Shown in pieces: positions 1 through 40,400 of a DNA stretch of 64,000 nucleotides (positions within the stretch are counted from its first letter, which is position 1; each line of letters starts with the position of its first letter). Where the stretch lies: positions 1,984,001 through 2,048,000 of the forward strand of contig JAKFAO010000003.1 of NCBI GenBank assembly GCA_021527695.1, read 5' to 3'. The translations under genes were made by a program, and so were the position numbers. The notes under the pieces are model-generated. The model saw only the letters and a program-made list of their open reading frames with translations, had not been told where the DNA came from and made no database searches. This stretch comes from Naematelia aurantialba. Its lineage: Eukaryota; Basidiomycota; Tremellomycetes; Tremellales; Naemateliaceae.

Positions 1-1466
1 TGGATGCACTCTCGGTGCATCTGGGGCCTAACCGTAAGGTCTTGGCGTACCTCGACGATATCTTTATCCTCTCGACAGACGACAAGGCCCTGGGCGACAC
101 CAAACGCTTCCTCGCAGACTACCGGACCACCCTCCAGCTTAACCCCAACAAGTGCAAGATGGTCAATTTCGAGGAAATATCCGAGAATGGTTTTCAGCTC
201 CTGGGCACAACCATTGGAGGCCAAGCGGCGAGGACTGCTTTTCTTCGACGAGCTATCGGCGGAGCTAAGCAGAAAATCTCTCATCTATCATCCCTGGACC
301 ACCAGTCTGCCCTCCTCCTCCTACGCAAGTGCATCTCCGCCGACCTACGACACTTGCAACGCTCCCTTCGGACGGACGACATCCGAGAAGAGTGGGACCC
401 ATTAGACCTAGCGCTATGGGAGGAGGTCAAGAGGATAAGGGGCAGGCCAGATATAGAGGGAGCAGAGGGAATAGAGGATGACTGCATTGGACGGGATGCT
501 GCATCCCTCCCAGCGCGGTTTGGGGGGTTAGATCTGCTCTCCCACAGGGATGTCTCACCTCATGCCCGAGCGGCGGCCGAAGAGACCGCCGACCAAGTTG
601 TCGACGATATTTTCGGTACCAAGCATTCAACCGAGGAGAGAGTATCCCGCTCGCAAGCAGAACGCTGCCGCGAGATGTGGGAGCAGCAGCGCCGTGAGTT
701 GATGAGGAAGGTGGATAGCGTTCGGGCGGTAGCGGTCTTGGAGAATGCGTCGGTGATTGGACGAAAGTGGCTCAACACAATCCCCTTCTTTCACCCACTT
801 CGCCTCAGCGACGCAGCCATCTCCACGGGACTCGCCCACCGAACACTTGCCAGAGCGCACCGACCTGTATGTAAGTGCGGTACGCCGGCAGAATTCCTTC
901 ACGAGGAGGTCTGCACAAGGATCGGTTTGACGGCCCGACACAACAACGTCCGAGACATTATCGCCGCCTCGCTCCGCAAGATACCGTCTACCGAGGTTAT
1001 CACGGAGCCCAGGACATCTGAGGGTCTAAGGCGAAACGACATCGGGCTGCGAGGGCCGGGCCGCATAGGGCGGCGGAACATCGACTACGACCTGAAAATC
1101 TACTCTCCCAACTCGACGTTTGCATTCCAACGGGTCGGTCCTCCCGTGCGGCTACCCCATGGTGCCGACCCCATCGAGTACTTCTCGGCCCATTGCGAGC
1201 ACTGGATGGCGCGAGTGGAGAGCAGAACGGACAAGAACAAGCCCGAGTCGCGCGTGGACTTCAAGCCTTTGGTGTTCACTTCCGGAGGCCTGATGGCCCG
1301 CGACACGGCAAAGGAGATCAGGTCGTGGATGGAGTTGGACAGAAGGGATATGTCGCGGATGATGGAGGCCATCAGCGTTGCTCTGCTGATGTCTAGGGCC
1401 CGGAACCGAGGGGCCTGCCTCCTTTTGAATGACGACGGGAGAGACGATTTGGACGATAACGCTTAA
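1..1466 (+). CDS. Reverse transcriptase C-terminal part, element copy 1 (5' partial)
   Basis: The frame is open from the window edge and encodes the RT catalytic C motif (YLDD near base 50), the thumb region and the C-terminal tail of the element protein. The tail has a C-x-C-x7-H-x3-C zinc-knuckle-like motif (around 870-915). It is followed by an R-N-D-I...D-x-D-L-K block (around 1030-1100) that fits the restriction-like endonuclease of R2/CRE-type retrotransposons. The protein is identical or nearly so to the C-terminal part of copy 2. It appears incomplete only because the window starts inside it. The stop at 1464-1466 overlaps the start of the next copy's ORF by 38 nt in another frame. 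Confidence 0.85.
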   Translation, partial: DALSVHLGPNRKVLAYLDDIFILSTDDKALGDTKRFLADYRTTLQLNPNKCKMVNFEEISENGFQLLGTTIGGQAARTAFLRRAIGGAKQKISHLSSLDHQSALLLLRKCISADLRHLQRSLRTDDIREEWDPLDLALWEEVKRIRGRPDIEGAEGIEDDCIGRDAASLPARFGGLDLLSHRDVSPHARAAAEETADQVVDDIFGTKHSTEERVSRSQAERCREMWEQQRRELMRKVDSVRAVAVLENASVIGRKWLNTIPFFHPLRLSDAAISTGLAHRTLARAHRPVCKCGTPAEFLHEEVCTRIGLTARHNNVRDIIAASLRKIPSTEVITEPRTSEGLRRNDIGLRGPGRIGRRNIDYDLKIYSPNSTFAFQRVGPPVRLPHGADPIEYFSAHCEHWMARVESRTDKNKPESRVDFKPLVFTSGGLMARDTAKEIRSWMELDRRDMSRMMEAISVALLMSRARNRGACLLLNDDGRDDLDDNA

Positions 1467-1693
1467 TGACTCACATGATCTTACAACCTTCACGTTGTTT
1501 TTATGGCCAGTTGTATATACAGACAGCATCCAGACCGAACTATACAGAAACATGCATCCCACTACTGTACTGACCTACGGGTCTATCTTCTTACGAGATT
1601 TTTCTGAGTCCGCGTCGCCTCTACAGCTTGCTGCAAGCGCTCGCACGATGTCGTCGGCACCGCACTATCGCCCTCCGATGTCAGGATACCCTC
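1..1693 (+). mobile_element. Non-LTR retrotransposon, copy 1 (5' part outside the window)
   Basis: This is the 3' part of an element that repeats at 3536-5228 with a period of exactly 3535 bp. By eye I count only six base differences over the shared ~1.69 kb, all in the last ~700 bp. The shared sequence stops at about 1693/5228, which I take as the element's 3' terminus. There is no poly(A) tail and no visible target-site duplication. The tail after the RT stop codon (1467-1693) is about 227 bp. Head-to-tail arrangement and near identity indicate recent amplification. Tandem, telomere-associated elements of this type (Cnl1, CRE clade) are known in Cryptococcus; assignment of this copy to that group is inference. 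Confidence 0.85.
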
Positions 1694-4600
1694 TTTTTGA
1701 ATCTCACAGCGACAAGACAGAACAGACATCGACATCAAAGCGAGGACGCCGACCAGGGCAGGAGAAGGAGAAGCCCGATACCGTGAGGCTTGTCAAGGGC
1801 CTCGGGGAGGTGGTCAACCCATCCTCCAGAGTCAACTTCGACGCGGTGGAGCGTCTTTTGGCGCCGCCATCGCCTACCGAATCCTGCCAGTCCTCCGATG
1901 CCGACCTACCAGATCCCTCTCCCTCCTCAAGCTCGCGAGATGCTCAAGCGACGGGCTCCCAGACGACTGAAGCGCACGCGACGACGACGACTACGGCACT
2001 CCTGTCGACGGGGAAACGACCACGATCGCCCACCGCCTCAGCATCTTCATCCACGAAACCCTCCCAATCCTTCTCCCCTTCTGATCCTTCTCGCTCCAAG
2101 TCGTTGACCGCTGCCAACAAAACCACTCAGAATTCAGCACGGCGATTTGGAGTTCCTCTTGATGTGAATTCTTCATCTCTTTCATCATCACGACCCCTAT
2201 CCTCTACTCCCACAACTCATTCCTCACGCGACGATCCTCCATACAAGAGGAGCCGAAACGACGCGCCCACGCTCAAATTTAAACCAAACAAACCGAACCG
2301 ACCCTCCCCTCCAGATGCCTCCCCCATCCGTTCACTTCCCCAGACTCGAGACGATACGGCCACTCAGCGTAGGGTCGACCATCGACCCCTGCCCCGGATT
2401 CCTCAATCCCTCACCCAAGCCCCCCTCCAGTCCACCCACGATCGCTTTCTTGCTCTGGCCCGTTTACCTGGCCGCCGGAAGCCTTTCCAGAAAAACGTCG
2501 ACAAGCCCTTCAGAGATGCTGCCGCACGAGCCGCAGACGCGTATCTGAAGGACCCTTCGGACGCAAACCTCCTTTTGTTCCTCGAGTTGCCCAAACGATG
2601 GCTCACACCCGCCCTGCAAGACCGCCAGCACCCGGCACGATGGCGTTTAGAGAAATTCATGAAGGAGGAACTGGAATGGCCCGAAGTACGCCCAGCAGAC
2701 AAGGCAGCGAAACGCGACAAGGTACACGACACAACGAAGCTCGTGGAGTTGGGCCGTCTGGGCACAGGCTGCCGGGTCCTCACCGAGGACACGGTAGTTG
2801 CGGATATCACTGATGAGACCGTGGCAGCTCTAGTGTCCAAGCACCCTCCCGGACCCACCCTTCCATTCGGTCTTGCGACTGGACCGGTTCCCGGTAGGGC
2901 GCCAACTAAAGACGATGTCCTCCGGGCCCTGCAAACGTTCGACCCGGACACGTCTCCCGGCATCAGCGGCTGGACAGCACGCATGCTGAACATCGTCATC
3001 GAGTCTCCGACAGTCCTCGAGTTTCTCACCATCCTGACGGCCAGTATCTTTGCGGGTACAGCCCCAGGGAAGGAGATGCTCTGTTCATCCCGCTTGACTC
3101 CGCTCGGCAAGCCCGACGGTGGCATTCGGCCGGTGGCTGTGGGGGAGGTGATGTATCGCCTGGCTATGAAGGCAATCTTGGAGAAAGCGCTCGACGGCAA
3201 GAAACCCCTGCTCCCATATCAATTGGGAGTAAAGACCAAAGGGGGTGTTGAACCCGTTGTGAGGGCAGTGGAGAGAGCGATGGATGGCACGTTGGACCAG
3301 GACTACACGCACCTCGTGTCCCTGGACGCCAGCAATGCCTTCAATGCTATCGACCGCAAGGTGGTCAGTCAAGCTGTGCACAAGTTCCTGCCTGGACTCT
3401 TCCGATGTGCCAGGTGGGCCTACCAGCTTGAATCGGATTTGGTGGTGGGCGACCGCGTCATCAGGTCACGCCAGGGCGTCCGACAGGGCGATCCTCTGGC
3501 GCCTCTACTGTTCTCGTTGGGCCTACGGCCAGCCTTGGATGCACTCTCGGTGCATCTGGGGCCTAACCGTAAGGTCTTGGCGTACCTCGACGATATCTTT
3601 ATCCTCTCGACAGACGACAAGGCCCTGGGCGACACCAAACGCTTCCTCGCAGACTACCGGACCACCCTCCAGCTTAACCCCAACAAGTGCAAGATGGTCA
3701 ATTTCGAGGAAATATCCGAGAATGGTTTTCAGCTCCTGGGCACAACCATTGGAGGCCAAGCGGCGAGGACTGCTTTTCTTCGACGAGCTATCGGCGGAGC
3801 TAAGCAGAAAATCTCTCATCTATCATCCCTGGACCACCAGTCTGCCCTCCTCCTCCTACGCAAGTGCATCTCCGCCGACCTACGACACTTGCAACGCTCC
3901 CTTCGGACGGACGACATCCGAGAAGAGTGGGACCCATTAGACCTAGCGCTATGGGAGGAGGTCAAGAGGATAAGGGGCAGGCCAGATATAGAGGGAGCAG
4001 AGGGAATAGAGGATGACTGCATTGGACGGGATGCTGCATCCCTCCCAGCGCGGTTTGGGGGGTTAGATCTGCTCTCCCACAGGGATGTCTCACCTCATGC
4101 CCGAGCGGCGGCCGAAGAGACCGCCGACCAAGTTGTCGACGATATTTTCGGTACCAAGCATTCAACCGAGGAGAGAGTATCCCGCTCGCAAGCAGAACGC
4201 TGCCGCGAGATGTGGGAGCAGCAGCGCCGTGAGTTGATGAGGAAGGTGGATAGCGTTCGGGCGGTAGCGGTCTTGGAGAATGCGTCGGTGATTGGACGAA
4301 AGTGGCTCAACACAATCCCCTTCTTTCACCCACTTCGCCTCAGCGACGCAGCCATCTCCACGGGACTCGCCCACCGAACACTTGCCAGAGCGCACCGACC
4401 TGTATGTAAGTGCGGTACGCCGGCAGAATTCCTTCACGAGGAGGTCTGCACAAGGATCGGTTTGACGGCCCGACACAACAACGTCCGAGACATTATCGCC
4501 GCCTCGCTCCGCAAGATACCGTCTACCGAGGTTATCACGGAGCCCAGGACATCTGAGGGTTTAAGGCGAAACGACATCGGGCTGCGAGGGCCGGGCCGCA

Positions 4601-5001
4601 TAGGGCGGCGGAACATCGACTACGACCTGAAAATCTACTCTCCCAACTCGACGTTTGCATTCCAACGGGTCGGTCCTCCCGTGCGGCTACCCCACGGTGC
4701 CGACCCCATCGAGTACTTCTCGGCCCATTGTGAGCACTGGATGGCGCGAGTGGAGAGCAGAACGGACAAGAACAAGCCCGAGTCGCGCGTGGACTTCAAG
4801 CCTTTGGTGTTCACTTCCGGAGGCCTGATGGCCCGCGACACGGCAAAGGAGATCAGGTCGTGGATGGAGTTGGACAGAAGGGATATGTCGCGGATGATGG
4901 AGGCCATCAGCGTTGCTCTGCTGATGTCTAGGGCCCGGAACCGAGGGGCCTGCCTCCTTTTGAATGACGACGGGAGAGACGATTTGGACGATAACGCTTA
5001 A
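1429..5001 (+). CDS. Non-LTR retrotransposon polyprotein: reverse transcriptase plus putative restriction-like endonuclease
   Basis: The ORF is 1190 aa. The N-terminal ~330 residues are Ser/Pro/Thr-rich and disordered, followed by a charged helical region. The RT core shows motif A (LDASNAFNAI, around 3320), motif B (RQGDPLAPLLFS, around 3480) and motif C (YLDD, around 3585). The C-terminus carries the C-x-C-x7-H-x3-C motif and an R-N-D...D-x-D-L-K block typical of elements using a restriction-like endonuclease. No apurinic-type endonuclease domain is seen. This fits the CRE/R2-like lineage, which primes cDNA synthesis on nicked target DNA. The first ATG (1429) and two later ones (1648, 1678) all lie in the 3' end of copy 1. 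No in-frame ATG occurs in copy 2 before about 2659. The frame is intact, so the element may be active. Confidence 0.88.
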   Translation: MTTGETIWTITLNDSHDLTTFTLFLWPVVYTDSIQTELYRNMHPTTVLTYGSIFLRDFSESASPLQLAASARTMSSAPHYRPPMSGYPLFESHSDKTEQTSTSKRGRRPGQEKEKPDTVRLVKGLGEVVNPSSRVNFDAVERLLAPPSPTESCQSSDADLPDPSPSSSSRDAQATGSQTTEAHATTTTTALLSTGKRPRSPTASASSSTKPSQSFSPSDPSRSKSLTAANKTTQNSARRFGVPLDVNSSSLSSSRPLSSTPTTHSSRDDPPYKRSRNDAPTLKFKPNKPNRPSPPDASPIRSLPQTRDDTATQRRVDHRPLPRIPQSLTQAPLQSTHDRFLALARLPGRRKPFQKNVDKPFRDAAARAADAYLKDPSDANLLLFLELPKRWLTPALQDRQHPARWRLEKFMKEELEWPEVRPADKAAKRDKVHDTTKLVELGRLGTGCRVLTEDTVVADITDETVAALVSKHPPGPTLPFGLATGPVPGRAPTKDDVLRALQTFDPDTSPGISGWTARMLNIVIESPTVLEFLTILTASIFAGTAPGKEMLCSSRLTPLGKPDGGIRPVAVGEVMYRLAMKAILEKALDGKKPLLPYQLGVKTKGGVEPVVRAVERAMDGTLDQDYTHLVSLDASNAFNAIDRKVVSQAVHKFLPGLFRCARWAYQLESDLVVGDRVIRSRQGVRQGDPLAPLLFSLGLRPALDALSVHLGPNRKVLAYLDDIFILSTDDKALGDTKRFLADYRTTLQLNPNKCKMVNFEEISENGFQLLGTTIGGQAARTAFLRRAIGGAKQKISHLSSLDHQSALLLLRKCISADLRHLQRSLRTDDIREEWDPLDLALWEEVKRIRGRPDIEGAEGIEDDCIGRDAASLPARFGGLDLLSHRDVSPHARAAAEETADQVVDDIFGTKHSTEERVSRSQAERCREMWEQQRRELMRKVDSVRAVAVLENASVIGRKWLNTIPFFHPLRLSDAAISTGLAHRTLARAHRPVCKCGTPAEFLHEEVCTRIGLTARHNNVRDIIAASLRKIPSTEVITEPRTSEGLRRNDIGLRGPGRIGRRNIDYDLKIYSPNSTFAFQRVGPPVRLPHGADPIEYFSAHCEHWMARVESRTDKNKPESRVDFKPLVFTSGGLMARDTAKEIRSWMELDRRDMSRMMEAISVALLMSRARNRGACLLLNDDGRDDLDDNA

Positions 5002-5228
5002 TGACTCACATGATCTTACAACCTTCACGTTGTTTCTATGGCCAGTTGTATATACAGACAGCATCCAGACCGAACTATACAGAAACATGCATCCCACTAC
5101 TGTAGTGACCTACGGGTCAATCTTCTTACGAGATTTTTCTGAGTCCGCGTCGCCTCTACAGCTTGCTGCAAGCGCTCGCACGATGTCGTCGGCACCGCAC
5201 TATCGCCCTCCGATGTCAGGATACCCTC
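1694..5228 (+). mobile_element. Non-LTR retrotransposon, copy 2 (complete 3535-bp unit)
   Basis: One full period of the tandem array. I place its boundaries where similarity between the two tails stops: after 1693 in copy 1 and after 5228 in copy 2, both ending in the bases ggataccct. With these limits the unit directly abuts copy 1. It has no 5' UTR of its own before the open frame and no in-frame ATG until about 2659. An alternative is that 5002-5228 includes the start of a truncated third unit. Downstream of 5228 the sequence changes to unrelated bases and then to degenerate inverted fragments of the same family. Confidence 0.75.
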
Positions 5229-5278
5229 AATTGTTTTTTTTGCGGCAGAGTAGCGTGTCCAGCGACAGCAGCGGGGAG

Positions 5279-6003
5279 GATCAAGTGCCGTAGGTCACCG
5301 TAGATGCATTTGCGGAGGAGGGCAGACTGGTGGTCTAGGGATGATAGATGGGAGATTTTCTGCTTGGCTCCGCCGATCGCTCGCCGAAAGGCAGTCTTCG
5401 CAGCTTGCATAGAGGACACCGTCTTTACTTGTGGCCCTACCGGGGACCGGTCCAGTCGCAAGACCGAATGGAAGGGTGGGCGATGCATGGTACTGGATAC
5501 TTCGGTCTGAATGTTGTATATACACCTGGCCATCAGACCAACGTGAAAGTCGTAAGATCATGCGAGTCATTAAGCGTTATTGTCCAAATCCAAATCATCT
5601 CTTCCAGCATCATTCAAAAGGAGGCAGGCCCCTCGGTTCTGGGCCCTAGACATCAGCCGAGAGATGCTGATGGCCTCCATCATCCACGACATGACACACC
5701 GCCCGACCACCTACACCACCTCCCCGAGCTTGCCGGATCCTACCAAGCTCATTATGCCTACACAACTGTCGATCAAGTCACAAGAACCCGAGCACTTCGC
5801 TCAACTCGAGTAAACGACAGCTTTCCACTCGTCTTTCATTAGCTTGAGGTCAATCAAGGACGGGTCGTAACAGGGACGCAGTGTCCCGTCCAATGCAGTC
5901 ATCCCCTATTCCCTCTGCTCCCTCTATATTTGGCCTGCCCCTTATCCCCTTGACCTCCTCCCATAGCGCTAGGTCTAGTGGGTCCCCCTCTTCTCGGATG
6001 TTT
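5279..6003 (-). mobile_element. Inverted, reshuffled remnants of the same retrotransposon
   Basis: Four blocks match the reverse complement of the element with clear but imperfect identity. About 5279-5398 corresponds to element bases about 3770-3892. About 5420-5490 corresponds to about 2850-2935. About 5503-5690 corresponds to about 4885-5070, including the ORF stop and 3' UTR. About 5881-6003 corresponds to about 3915-4040. Their order differs from the element, and 5690-5880 is unrelated to it as far as I can see. All frames are broken. The divergence is much greater than between copies 1 and 2, so these are older insertions or rearrangement products. Bases 5229-5278 are of unknown origin. 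Confidence 0.8.
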
Positions 6004-37451: not shown

Positions 37452-40400
37452 CTAAAACAACCCCTCGATGTCTCCCGTCTCGGGGTTGAGATCGATATCG
37501 TAAAAGCCCGGACGCGTAGTCAGGCCCGGCATGGTGCTCATATCCCCAACCAGCGGGTACACAAAGCTCGCGCCCGCCGACAGCCTGACGTTTCGGATGG
37601 GCAACGTGAATCCAGTCGGGACGCCCTTCTTGCTCGGGTCGTCGGAGAGCGATAGCGCAGTCTTGGCCATACAGATTGGCAAGCCGCCATATCCCTGTCG
37701 TTCATATCGCTCGACTTCGGCCTGTGCCTCTGGTGACAGCTCGATCCCATCTGCTCCATACATCTCTTTCGCGATGATGGTCATTTTGTCCATAAGAGGC
37801 TGGTTCAGATCGTACAGGAATCGGAACTGCGACGGCTCCTTGCAAGCGTCGATCACTGCCTCGGCGAGCTCCACAGCTCCAGCGCCACCCTTGGCCCAGT
37901 GATTCGCCGGCACGGCGTAGTCCGCACCAACGCCGAGAGCGTACTTCTGCACAAGGGCCATCTCGGCCTCTGTATCGTTGCTAAACATCAGCACAGACGG
38001 TGTTTCGCCACTCACGAAAACTTGTTGATGGCAACAATGACCTTGAGCCCGAACTTTTTGGCGTTTTGGATGTGCTTGCCCAAGTTTGCACAGCCAGCTT
38101 CCAGGAGTTCCAGGTTTTCTTTCGTGTAGACCGCATCGAGCGGCTTGCCAGGAGTGACAGCCGGTCCACCGCCGTGCATCTTGAGTGCCCGGATCGTGGC
38201 TACCAGGACAACGGCGTTCGGCTTGAGACCCGACACCCTCGTCTTGATGTTGCAGAACTTCTCCATACCGATGTCTGCGCCGAAGCCAGCTTCTGTGATA
38301 ACATATCCGTTGCGGCTCTCGTCGTCGCCCTCCTCGATGCCGGCAAGCTTGAGTGCAATACGGTCGGCAATGATCGACGAGTTGCCATGAGCAATGTTGG
38401 CGAAAGGCCCGGCGTGCACAAACACTGGCGTACCCTCGAGCGTCTGCATGAGAGTCGGCTTGATGGCGTCTTTCATGAGAACAGCCATGGCGCCGGCACA
38501 ACCAATGTCCTCGGCGGTGATCGGGTCGCCCTTCTTGGACGAAGCAACGACCATGCGGCCAAGTCGAGCACGCATATCGGCAACATCCTTCGAGAGCGCC
38601 AATACGGCCATAACCTCCGATGCGACGGCAATGTCAAACGCGGTCTTGCGGGTCAGACCCTTCTCGGTAGGCGCCTCGCCAATCGTGATCGAACGGAGAT
38701 ATCTGTCGTTCGTGTCCAGGACTCGGTTCCAGGTGAGCGTCGCCGGATCGATATCAAGCCGAGCGAACCTCGCCGCTTCTTCCTCGGTAAGCGCATTGGC
38801 ATCCGTCTTGTCGATGCCGAGTTTCTTGAGTCGCGCCAGCATCGGCTTGGCAAATGTTCTCACCCCCTTTTTGGCAGGAACGAGACGGCTGAACAGAGCC
38901 TTGTCCGACTGAGTGGCCTCATGGAACATTCGCGCATCGATCGCAGCCGCGAGCAGATTGTTTGCCGCAGTAACAGCATGGATATCGCCAGTCAAGTGCA
39001 AGTTGAATTCCGTCATGGGAATGACCTGGGAGTATCCGCCACCTGCGGCACCTCCCTTGACACCGAATGTAGGGCCCTGGGAGGGCTGACGCACACAAGC
39101 AATGGCAGTCTTGTGCAGGTGAGCGCCGAGTGCCTGAGCGAGACCGATGGTGGTGGTCGACTTGCCCTCTCCGAGCGGTGTCGGAGTGATACCAGCCACC
39201 ACGATGTACTTGCCGTCCTGCCGTTCAGAGAGACGCTGCAGAACCGAAAGCTCGATCTTGGCCTTGTAACGCCCGTAGCTCTCAATTTCATCCGGCTGCA
39301 CACCCATCTCCTCGGCAATGGTGACCACCGGCTTAGGCGTCTGTGCAACGGCGATTTCAATGTCGCTTGGAACGTTGTCTAGGAGGTCGAGCGTAAGACG
39401 AGTGATCTTGCGGTTTCGGGAGACCTCGAAAGAGTGCTTCGCTGCTCGGAACGTATTGTTCATGAGCATCGCGACCGTCATGGGTCCCACACCACCGGGA
39501 ACAGGAGTGATGTAGCTGGCGACTTGAGAGGCCGACGCAAAGTCGACATCTCCCACAAGGCGCTGTCCTGACTTTTTGGAAGCGTCGGGGATGTAGTTGG
39601 TTCCGACGTCAATGACAATTGCGCCAGGCTTGAGCCAGTCGCCCTTGACAAACTCGGCCTGACCAATAGCAGCAACGACGACGTCGGCGGTCTGCAGGAT
39701 GGTCTGCAAGTTTTTGGTGCGCGAGTGGCATTGGGTGACTGTGGCGTCCTTCTTTCGCAACAGCGCGCAGACGGGGGTGCCGACGATGTCCGATCGACCG
39801 AGTACGACGACGTTGGCGCCACACAGGTCGAATCCAGTCGCCTCGATCAGCTTGATCACGCCAGCCGGAGTGCAGGGCGTGAAGTACGGCTCGGCGATGC
39901 GCGAGTTGAGCAGGCCAATGTTCTCGGGGTGAAAGCCGTCAACATCCTTGTTGACAGCGACAGAATCGACCACTCGCTTCTCGGCTTCCTTGTCAGCTCC
40001 CTCGAGCGGTAGCTGCACGAGGATACCCGACACTCTCTCGTCGGCATTCGCCTTGCGGACGGCCTCGAGGACTTTTTGGACACCAGCGCCAGCGTGCGCG
40101 CCAGACTCGGCATCAGACGGTACCTGGATATGTTCGACGGTCATACCGCTCTCCTCTGCGGCCTTGAGCTTCATCCGGATATAAGTGGACGAGGCTGGGC
40201 TAGATCCGAGCTGAAGGATCACGAGATGAGGGGCCTTGAAAGTCCGGTTGGCAGATTGCAGCGACGCAATGCTCTTTGAGATGGATTCCCGAATTCCCCT
40301 ACTTTGATCAGCTCTTGTGCAGGAAGCGCAGGAGATTCTCACTTGGCAATGGCAGTGCCATCGATGATGCGCGCCTGACCCACTGGGGGTTCTTCAACAG

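Follow-up and report, generated by a model that had tools for sequence, protein, structure and literature searches.

A U2 snRNA gene is followed by two head-to-tail retrotransposon copies

We analysed a 64,000-nucleotide stretch of the genome of the fungus Naematelia aurantialba (assembly GCA_021527695.1; contig JAKFAO010000003.1, here C9, positions C9:1984001-2048000), referred to below as the window. At its left end lie two copies of a retrotransposon, A and then B, that follow a gene for U2 small nuclear RNA (snRNA) and form a head-to-tail repeat with a unit of 3535 bp (Table 1). The genome examined comprises 21.0 Mb in 15 contigs, and the locus is about 178 kb away from the end of its contig. 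The original prediction, which had described this repeat, is confirmed; A and B differ at 9 positions over the unit (99.7% identity).

Copy A is immediately preceded by the complete U2 gene (C9:1981968-1982158), whose end is 1.8 kb to the left of the window. The gene was matched by the Rfam model RF00004 over C9:1981968-1982154 with a score of 98.3 bits (model positions 1-192; gathering score 46). A genome-wide scan with the Rfam U2 model (45 of 155 candidates scored) gave three matches, and only this gene exceeded the cut-off; the other two, with 27.0 and 25.2 bits, were the tails of the two retrotransposon units. The whole window, scanned with Rfam, contained nothing at gathering scores. When the gene (the Rfam match plus 4 bases, 191 nt) was compared by BLAST with the surrounding 40 kb, it was found in three places: nt 1-191 at the gene itself and nt 63-191 at window 1565-1693, both at 100%, and nt 63-191 at window 5100-5228, at 98.4%. 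The 129 bp that precede each retrotransposon body are U2 snRNA sequence, and the array reads U2(1-191), A body, U2(63-191), B body, U2(63-191), flank. The part of the U2 gene that recurs is identical to tail A over all 129 bases, while tail B carries 2 private differences. Matching between the tails ceases after window 1693 and 5228. The stretch 1565-1693 had been taken for the 3' end of the element, but it is a copy of U2 nt 63-191, and the two end points are those of what appears to be duplicated U2 sequence rather than of the element. Directly behind copy B, the relics at window 5274-6001 are older remains at the same locus.

The element encodes an R2-like reverse transcriptase and a C-terminal endonuclease

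In the 1117-residue protein of the U2 locus, Pfam placed a reverse transcriptase (RT) at residues 488-701 (E 3.6e-18), and the best match by sequence in the PDB was an R2 protein (E 5.3e-7). The predicted structural model has a mean predicted local distance difference test score (pLDDT) of 78.6; it is disordered up to about residue 240, with a short helix only at residues 64-71, and the remainder is predicted well. With this model, the first seven Foldseek matches were R2 chains. VIA-align placed chains of LINE-1 ORF2p slightly above R2 by Z score (24.4 versus 22.9 for the best R2), and the six R2 rows that it listed had 652-705 residues aligned and reached model residue 1105-1111.

A search for related proteins, with 7984 candidates scored, gave 146 matches, 120 of which were listed. 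In a 39-row alignment of the U2-locus protein with 38 of these listed relatives, residues C920, C922, H930, C934, R942, H943, E965, D976 and D993, which belong to the CCHC, RHD/N and endonuclease motifs, were invariant. The protein has an RT of the R2/LINE kind and, toward its C-terminus, a CCHC motif, an RHD/N motif and a PD-(D/E)xK-like endonuclease. Motif spacing departs from the published CRE pattern given in PMC12857005, and the RPD of that pattern is RND here. A motif pattern that we wrote ourselves fits the U2-locus protein; among the 120 listed relatives it fits only 43. We also looked for N-terminal zinc fingers and saw none; the first 330 residues contain one Cys. The best reading is that the element is a restriction-like-endonuclease (RLE) non-long-terminal-repeat (non-LTR) retrotransposon, R2/CRE-type in the wide sense.

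The only early in-frame ATGs lie in U2 sequence

The reading frame is open from window 1429 to 5001 and, as predicted, crosses the A/B junction without a stop. Read from window 1648, it has Met at residues 1 and 11 and the next one only at residue 338 (window 1648, 1678 and 2659). The first codon of the body is residue 16, and residues 16-337 contain no in-frame ATG. The claim that copy B has none from the junction at 1693/1694 until 2659 was thereby borne out, and it holds for copy A as well: the A and B proteins differ only at residues 397 and 552, so the start-codon pattern is common to both. Their coding sequences differ by 4 silent and 2 replacement changes, and the 1117-aa frame is kept in both. 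Upstream of the body of copy A the frame stays open over 133 nt; the first in-frame ATG lies 46 nt before the body, and the only AUGs before residue 338 are those at U2 nt 146 and 176, in the 3' domain of U2.

The original prediction had placed three ATGs (1429, 1648 and 1678) in the 3' part of copy A and proposed that this copy supplies the start codon to copy B, in a manner resembling the Drosophila element HeT-A. All three do lie upstream of the B body, but those at 1648 and 1678 are U2 sequence and not part of the element, and the one at 1429 lies inside the 3' coding region of A, in another frame, and is not needed. Moreover, copy A has the same two ATGs with no intact copy before it. What survives of the proposal is that the start codon would come from outside the element, as the body offers none before residue 338. 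The donor would be a different one: because the early AUGs are U2 sequence and are present before copy A too, the start codon would be provided by the host U2 gene rather than by the copy next door.

Residues 16-337 are probably translated, because their 322 codons are free of stops, against 5 and 6 stops in the other two forward frames, and because short motifs recur in relatives: those near residues 58-72 and 165-175 in P0001 and the first of them also in P0002, two proteins from the search described above. The GC content by codon position of this stretch, given below, speaks against it.

Related copies in the same genome have other targets and their own ATG

Related copies on contigs C1, C8 and C14 are flanked by pieces of a 5S ribosomal RNA (rRNA) gene, as BLAST with two intact 5S genes from this genome showed; Rfam cmscan found no 5S in these copies (L032-L035), even at E 0.1, and the assignment stands on BLAST. 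The overlap between the two halves of the 5S gene is 7 bases at C1 and 0-1 at C8, and a 129-bp duplication is therefore not a habit of the group.

As a control within the genome, related copies were examined for their first ATG. In the five copies with a usable 5' junction, the first in-frame ATG lies about 700-1530 nt inside the element (703, 735, 1534, 932 and 922 nt for the C1, C8, first C14 and two C15 copies, those on C15 with estimated junctions). For U2 copy A it lies 46 nt before the body, as given above. For the second C14 element and the C4 copy no junction was set, and the C3, C13 and shorter relatives lay outside this control. The U2 family is without a start of the kind that these five relatives possess.

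The related element L040/L041 (C13:1559258-1570017) is interrupted by an LTR retrotransposon whose 412-bp LTRs (1560098-1560509 and 1567519-1567930) are identical, and a 98% copy of this LTR lies at C14:518507-518922. L043 (C11:239701-239898 and 240111-240266) is an RT fragment, 73% identical to the RT of the U2 locus, that lies 213 bp from a U4 snRNA gene. U4 was considered as a second snRNA target and rejected, as the fragment is on the opposite strand and degenerate.

Table 1. Features of the U2 locus and related retrotransposons elsewhere in the genome. Positions refer to the window unless a contig (C) is named. UTR, untranslated region; ORF, open reading frame.
Feature	Position	Strand	Remarks
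Copy A unit	C9:1982159-1985693	+	3535 bp; window begins inside copy A
Copy B unit	C9:1985694-1989228 (window 1694-5228)	+	3535 bp
Copy A, 3' part of ORF	1-1466	+	End of RT fingers/palm, thumb, endonuclease; rest of A and complete U2 gene lie left of window
Copy A 3' UTR	1467-1564	+	Between stop codon (1464-1466) and U2 repeat
Tail A	1565-1693	+	U2 nt 63-191; BLAST 129/129; weak Rfam U2 match, 27.0 bits
Candidate start codon 1 of copy B	1648-1650	+	U2 nt 146
Candidate start codon 2 of copy B	1678-1680	+	U2 nt 176
Copy B body	1694-5099	+	3406 bp; coding in frame from 1648 to stop 4999-5001, 1117 aa, RT and restriction-like endonuclease
Copy B 3' UTR	5002-5099	+	
Tail B	5100-5228	+	U2 nt 63-191, 2 differences; BLAST
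Presumed original 3' flank of U2 gene	5229-5273	no strand	Presumed from its position directly past the last U2 repeat
Inverted, scrambled relics of same retrotransposon family	5274-6001	-	Pieces 83-94% identical; without U2 sequence
L032	C1:1904628-1908679		Related retrotransposon in 5S rRNA gene
L033	C8:1615090-1619164		Related retrotransposon in 5S rRNA gene
L034/L035	C14:511342-519966		Two related retrotransposons, head to tail, in one 5S gene
L037/L038	C15:1060655-1069490		Related-family pair, head to tail, in (ACTTTT)n microsatellite

A relative in another assembly begins with a U2-like peptide

The closest relatives among the listed matches were P0001 (60%) and P0002 (58%), both over residues 360-1117. 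We built a quick tree of 47 rows from this part of the copy B protein, nine relatives from the same genome and 37 of the 120 listed proteins, without SLACS or CRE rows. In it the U2-locus protein pairs with P0001 (Shimodaira-Hasegawa-like approximate likelihood ratio test, SH-aLRT, 95) and then with P0002 (100). A neighbouring branch holds a Cryptococcus neoformans protein, P0020. The predicted protein P0020 (LQV05_002423) carries, as judged by eye, a second copy of part of the endonuclease region.

The N-terminus of P0001, MSPATHYGPPMS, is identical to that of the U2-locus protein, MSSAPHYRPPMS, at 9 of 12 residues. Over the entire U2-derived stretch the two agree at 10 of 15 residues and over residues 16-240 at 65 of 182 (36%). 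As controls, the other 119 listed relatives, searched over their first 150 residues, gave a best match to the 12 residues of 6/12, and the rest of P0001 one of 4/12. Like the U2-locus protein, P0001 has Met at residues 1 and 11, and by our own reading the conserved U2 loop of the Rfam consensus reads A-x-H-Y in this frame, as it does in both proteins. Judged from the P0001 peptide, the same fusion of U2 to the element, in the same frame, seems to be present in a second assembly.

A model for insertion and expression

The junctions make it very likely that the element inserted into U2 between nt 62 and 63 with a 129-bp target-site duplication. Going by these junctions and by target-primed reverse transcription in general, the bottom strand would be nicked between U2 nt 62 and 63, priming reverse transcription of the element RNA, and the top strand would be cut 129 bp onward, just beyond the 3' end of U2. 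Because the whole remainder of U2 would be duplicated on insertion, a complete U2 gene would stay upstream, to the left of each insertion, where it could be hit again. B would have inserted first and A later: the right-hand duplicate of B would be free to drift while U2 itself is constrained, and the later arrival of A would bring a fresh duplicate. That the U2 repeat equals tail A but not tail B fits this order, although it is suggestive only, and later mutation, gene conversion or unequal crossing-over could yield the same pattern.

The element would have no 5' leader or start codon of its own, its frame entering the body from inside U2. Its mRNA would most likely be a read-through RNA that is driven by the U2 promoter and translated from a U2 AUG; should the U2 AUG be wrong, R2-like cap-independent initiation would be the fallback. 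We lean toward initiation at a U2 AUG, judging from the frame and from P0001, and several points weigh against it. GC content by codon position is 58.7/57.8/58.1% in codons 16-337, without a coding signal, while it is 62.3/45.8/68.7% in the RT-endonuclease part, a strong one. P0001 has further Met residues at 22 and 57 that could serve as the start instead, and P0002, the next relative, begins without a U2-like peptide. Finally, correct 3' processing of U2 would remove the AUG from the message, and therefore only unprocessed RNA could be translated from it.

Leaving the U2 AUGs unused gives an alternative that we consider unlikely but serious: insertion would be as proposed, with translation from a non-AUG start in the body, by an R2-like cap-independent mechanism, or from a spliced 5' exon. 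The loss of the AUG through U2 processing would agree with it, as would the in-frame GTG codons at positions 46 and 55 and the precedent of R2, whose RNA, according to PMC12203849, is released from a co-transcript by cleavage, its translation being thought not to need a cap. However, the frame stays open over the U2 junction in both A and B, P0001 has the corresponding peptide with both Met residues in place, and Rfam gave no ribozyme match in window 1400-2100. The U2 3' domain might, alternatively, be the element's own 3' tail, and insertion might occur exactly at the U2 end by pairing of the RNA tail with the target, with little or no duplication. This would yield the identical final arrangement, and the tail is present in both units; but tail A matches the repeat in the target whereas tail B, the sole other tail in the genome, does not (a weak point, as the changes may be later). 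The 3' end of the relics, at window 5482-5692, also breaks off about 6 bases short of the U2 part, and BLAST of the relic region with U2 gave no significant match (again weak, as the relics are rearranged). We regard an own tail as improbable.

5' truncation is frequent in non-LTR elements, and unequal crossing-over between the 129-bp repeats could have turned a single truncated insertion beside U2 into two; the open frame would then be due to chance and the true element longer. Relatives with a leader and longer N-termini, and the near identity of A and B, are what this would lead one to expect. Set against it, P0001, from another assembly, joins the body to the same U2 point in the same frame, as far as its peptide tells, and both copies retain the 1117-aa frame with few replacements; we think a truncation origin quite improbable too. 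Supply by the neighbouring copy's own 3' end, as both promoter and start-codon donor in the manner of HeT-A, seems to us extremely unlikely: the frame does pass from the 3' region of A into B, but the tail shared by both units belongs to the host's U2, no copy precedes A, which nevertheless starts in the same way, and the locus is far from the contig end. That distance and the U2 junction also led us to reject a telomeric array of the MoTeR/Cnl1 kind, which the type of protein had suggested.

Overall, the best explanation, and in our view a likely one, is a U2-targeted RLE retrotransposon with a gene-sparing duplication and a probable borrowed start codon. Only tentatively, as something possible rather than probable, do we propose that it combines two linked devices for living in a single-copy essential RNA gene: a 129-bp cleavage offset that spares U2, and the use of U2 as promoter, mRNA 5' end and AUG. 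If this is true, one sequence would be both spliceosomal RNA and coding start, and the output of the element would be set by the rate at which U2 3'-end processing fails.

Comparison with known elements

The Utopia elements are RLE non-LTR retrotransposons that live in U2 snRNA genes (Kojima and Jurka, 2015; PMC4640811). Like Utopia, the present element has RT and restriction-like endonuclease in one ORF, inserts into U2 and occurs in tandem, as Utopia sometimes does. Utopia, however, is described as inserting at U2 nt 38/39 with no duplication or one of 20 bp, disrupting U2 in a multi-copy setting, whereas here the 3' junction is at nt 62/63, the apparent duplication is 129 bp, U2 is left complete and one U2 gene was found; table 1 of that paper contains no fungus. 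We have not filed the element as Utopia, setting it apart by published site and duplication. Keno has the same U2 target, but with an apurinic-like endonuclease and the Utopia site (PMC4640811), in contrast to the C-terminal RLE and the other site seen here.

In its RT and C-terminal CCHC, RHD-or-N and RLE motifs the element resembles the CRE-type elements (SLACS, CRE1/2, CZAR and the fungal Cnl1, MoTeR1 and FoTeRs), which also make target duplications and have small RNA genes or telomeres as targets. The target-site duplication described for CRE in PMC3636483 has its counterpart in the 129-bp repeat on both sides of each body. The element differs from the CRE types in its U2 target, in having no leader and in a duplication far longer than in the related 5S copies of this genome. 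By architecture and duplication, the element would work like the CRE/R2 type.

R9 of the rotifer Adineta vaga is an RLE element that reportedly makes a target-site duplication of about 126 bp. The exceptional length is thus shared, if that figure holds, but R9 resides in multi-copy ribosomal DNA and the present element in an apparently single-copy gene; its target is U2 and not the 28S gene of R2 and R9. R2 serves as a model for expression by co-transcription with a host gene and without a promoter of its own, but it has a 28S target and a ribozyme like that of hepatitis delta virus. A ribozyme at the 5' end of the present element was considered and rejected, as Rfam in window 1400-2100 gave only U2 (27.0 bits) and a frameshift-site match (E 8.4). 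HeT-A of Drosophila forms head-to-tail arrays and obtains 5' functions from outside the element; here, by contrast, the supplier would be the host target gene, the element encodes RT and endonuclease, and it does not lie at a chromosome end.

In titles and abstracts of the open-licence PubMed Central literature we recognised no element that targets U2 in a fungus, none in U2 that makes a long duplication, and no start codon supplied by a target.

Target-specific retrotransposons are thought to persist by hitting multi-copy genes. That several families persist in about ten U2 genes was a surprise to the authors of the Utopia study (PMC4640811). In the present assembly a single U2 gene was found, and it is targeted and yet complete. 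This would offer a concrete solution: the duplication has the length needed for the gene to be rebuilt. A comparable case is that of prokaryotic elements, which restore a tRNA gene upon inserting into it. Should translation start at the U2 AUG, a mobile element would owe its start codon to a non-coding RNA gene, and how U2 3'-end formation bears on expression of the retrotransposon could be tested directly. Site-specific insertion that spares the gene may also interest developers of R2-type enzymes.

Elsewhere in the window, a gene for C1-tetrahydrofolate synthase lies at 38015-40174 on the minus strand, and its conserved protein marks the host as a tremellomycete, with 88% identity to Kwoniella and 87% to Cryptococcus proteins.

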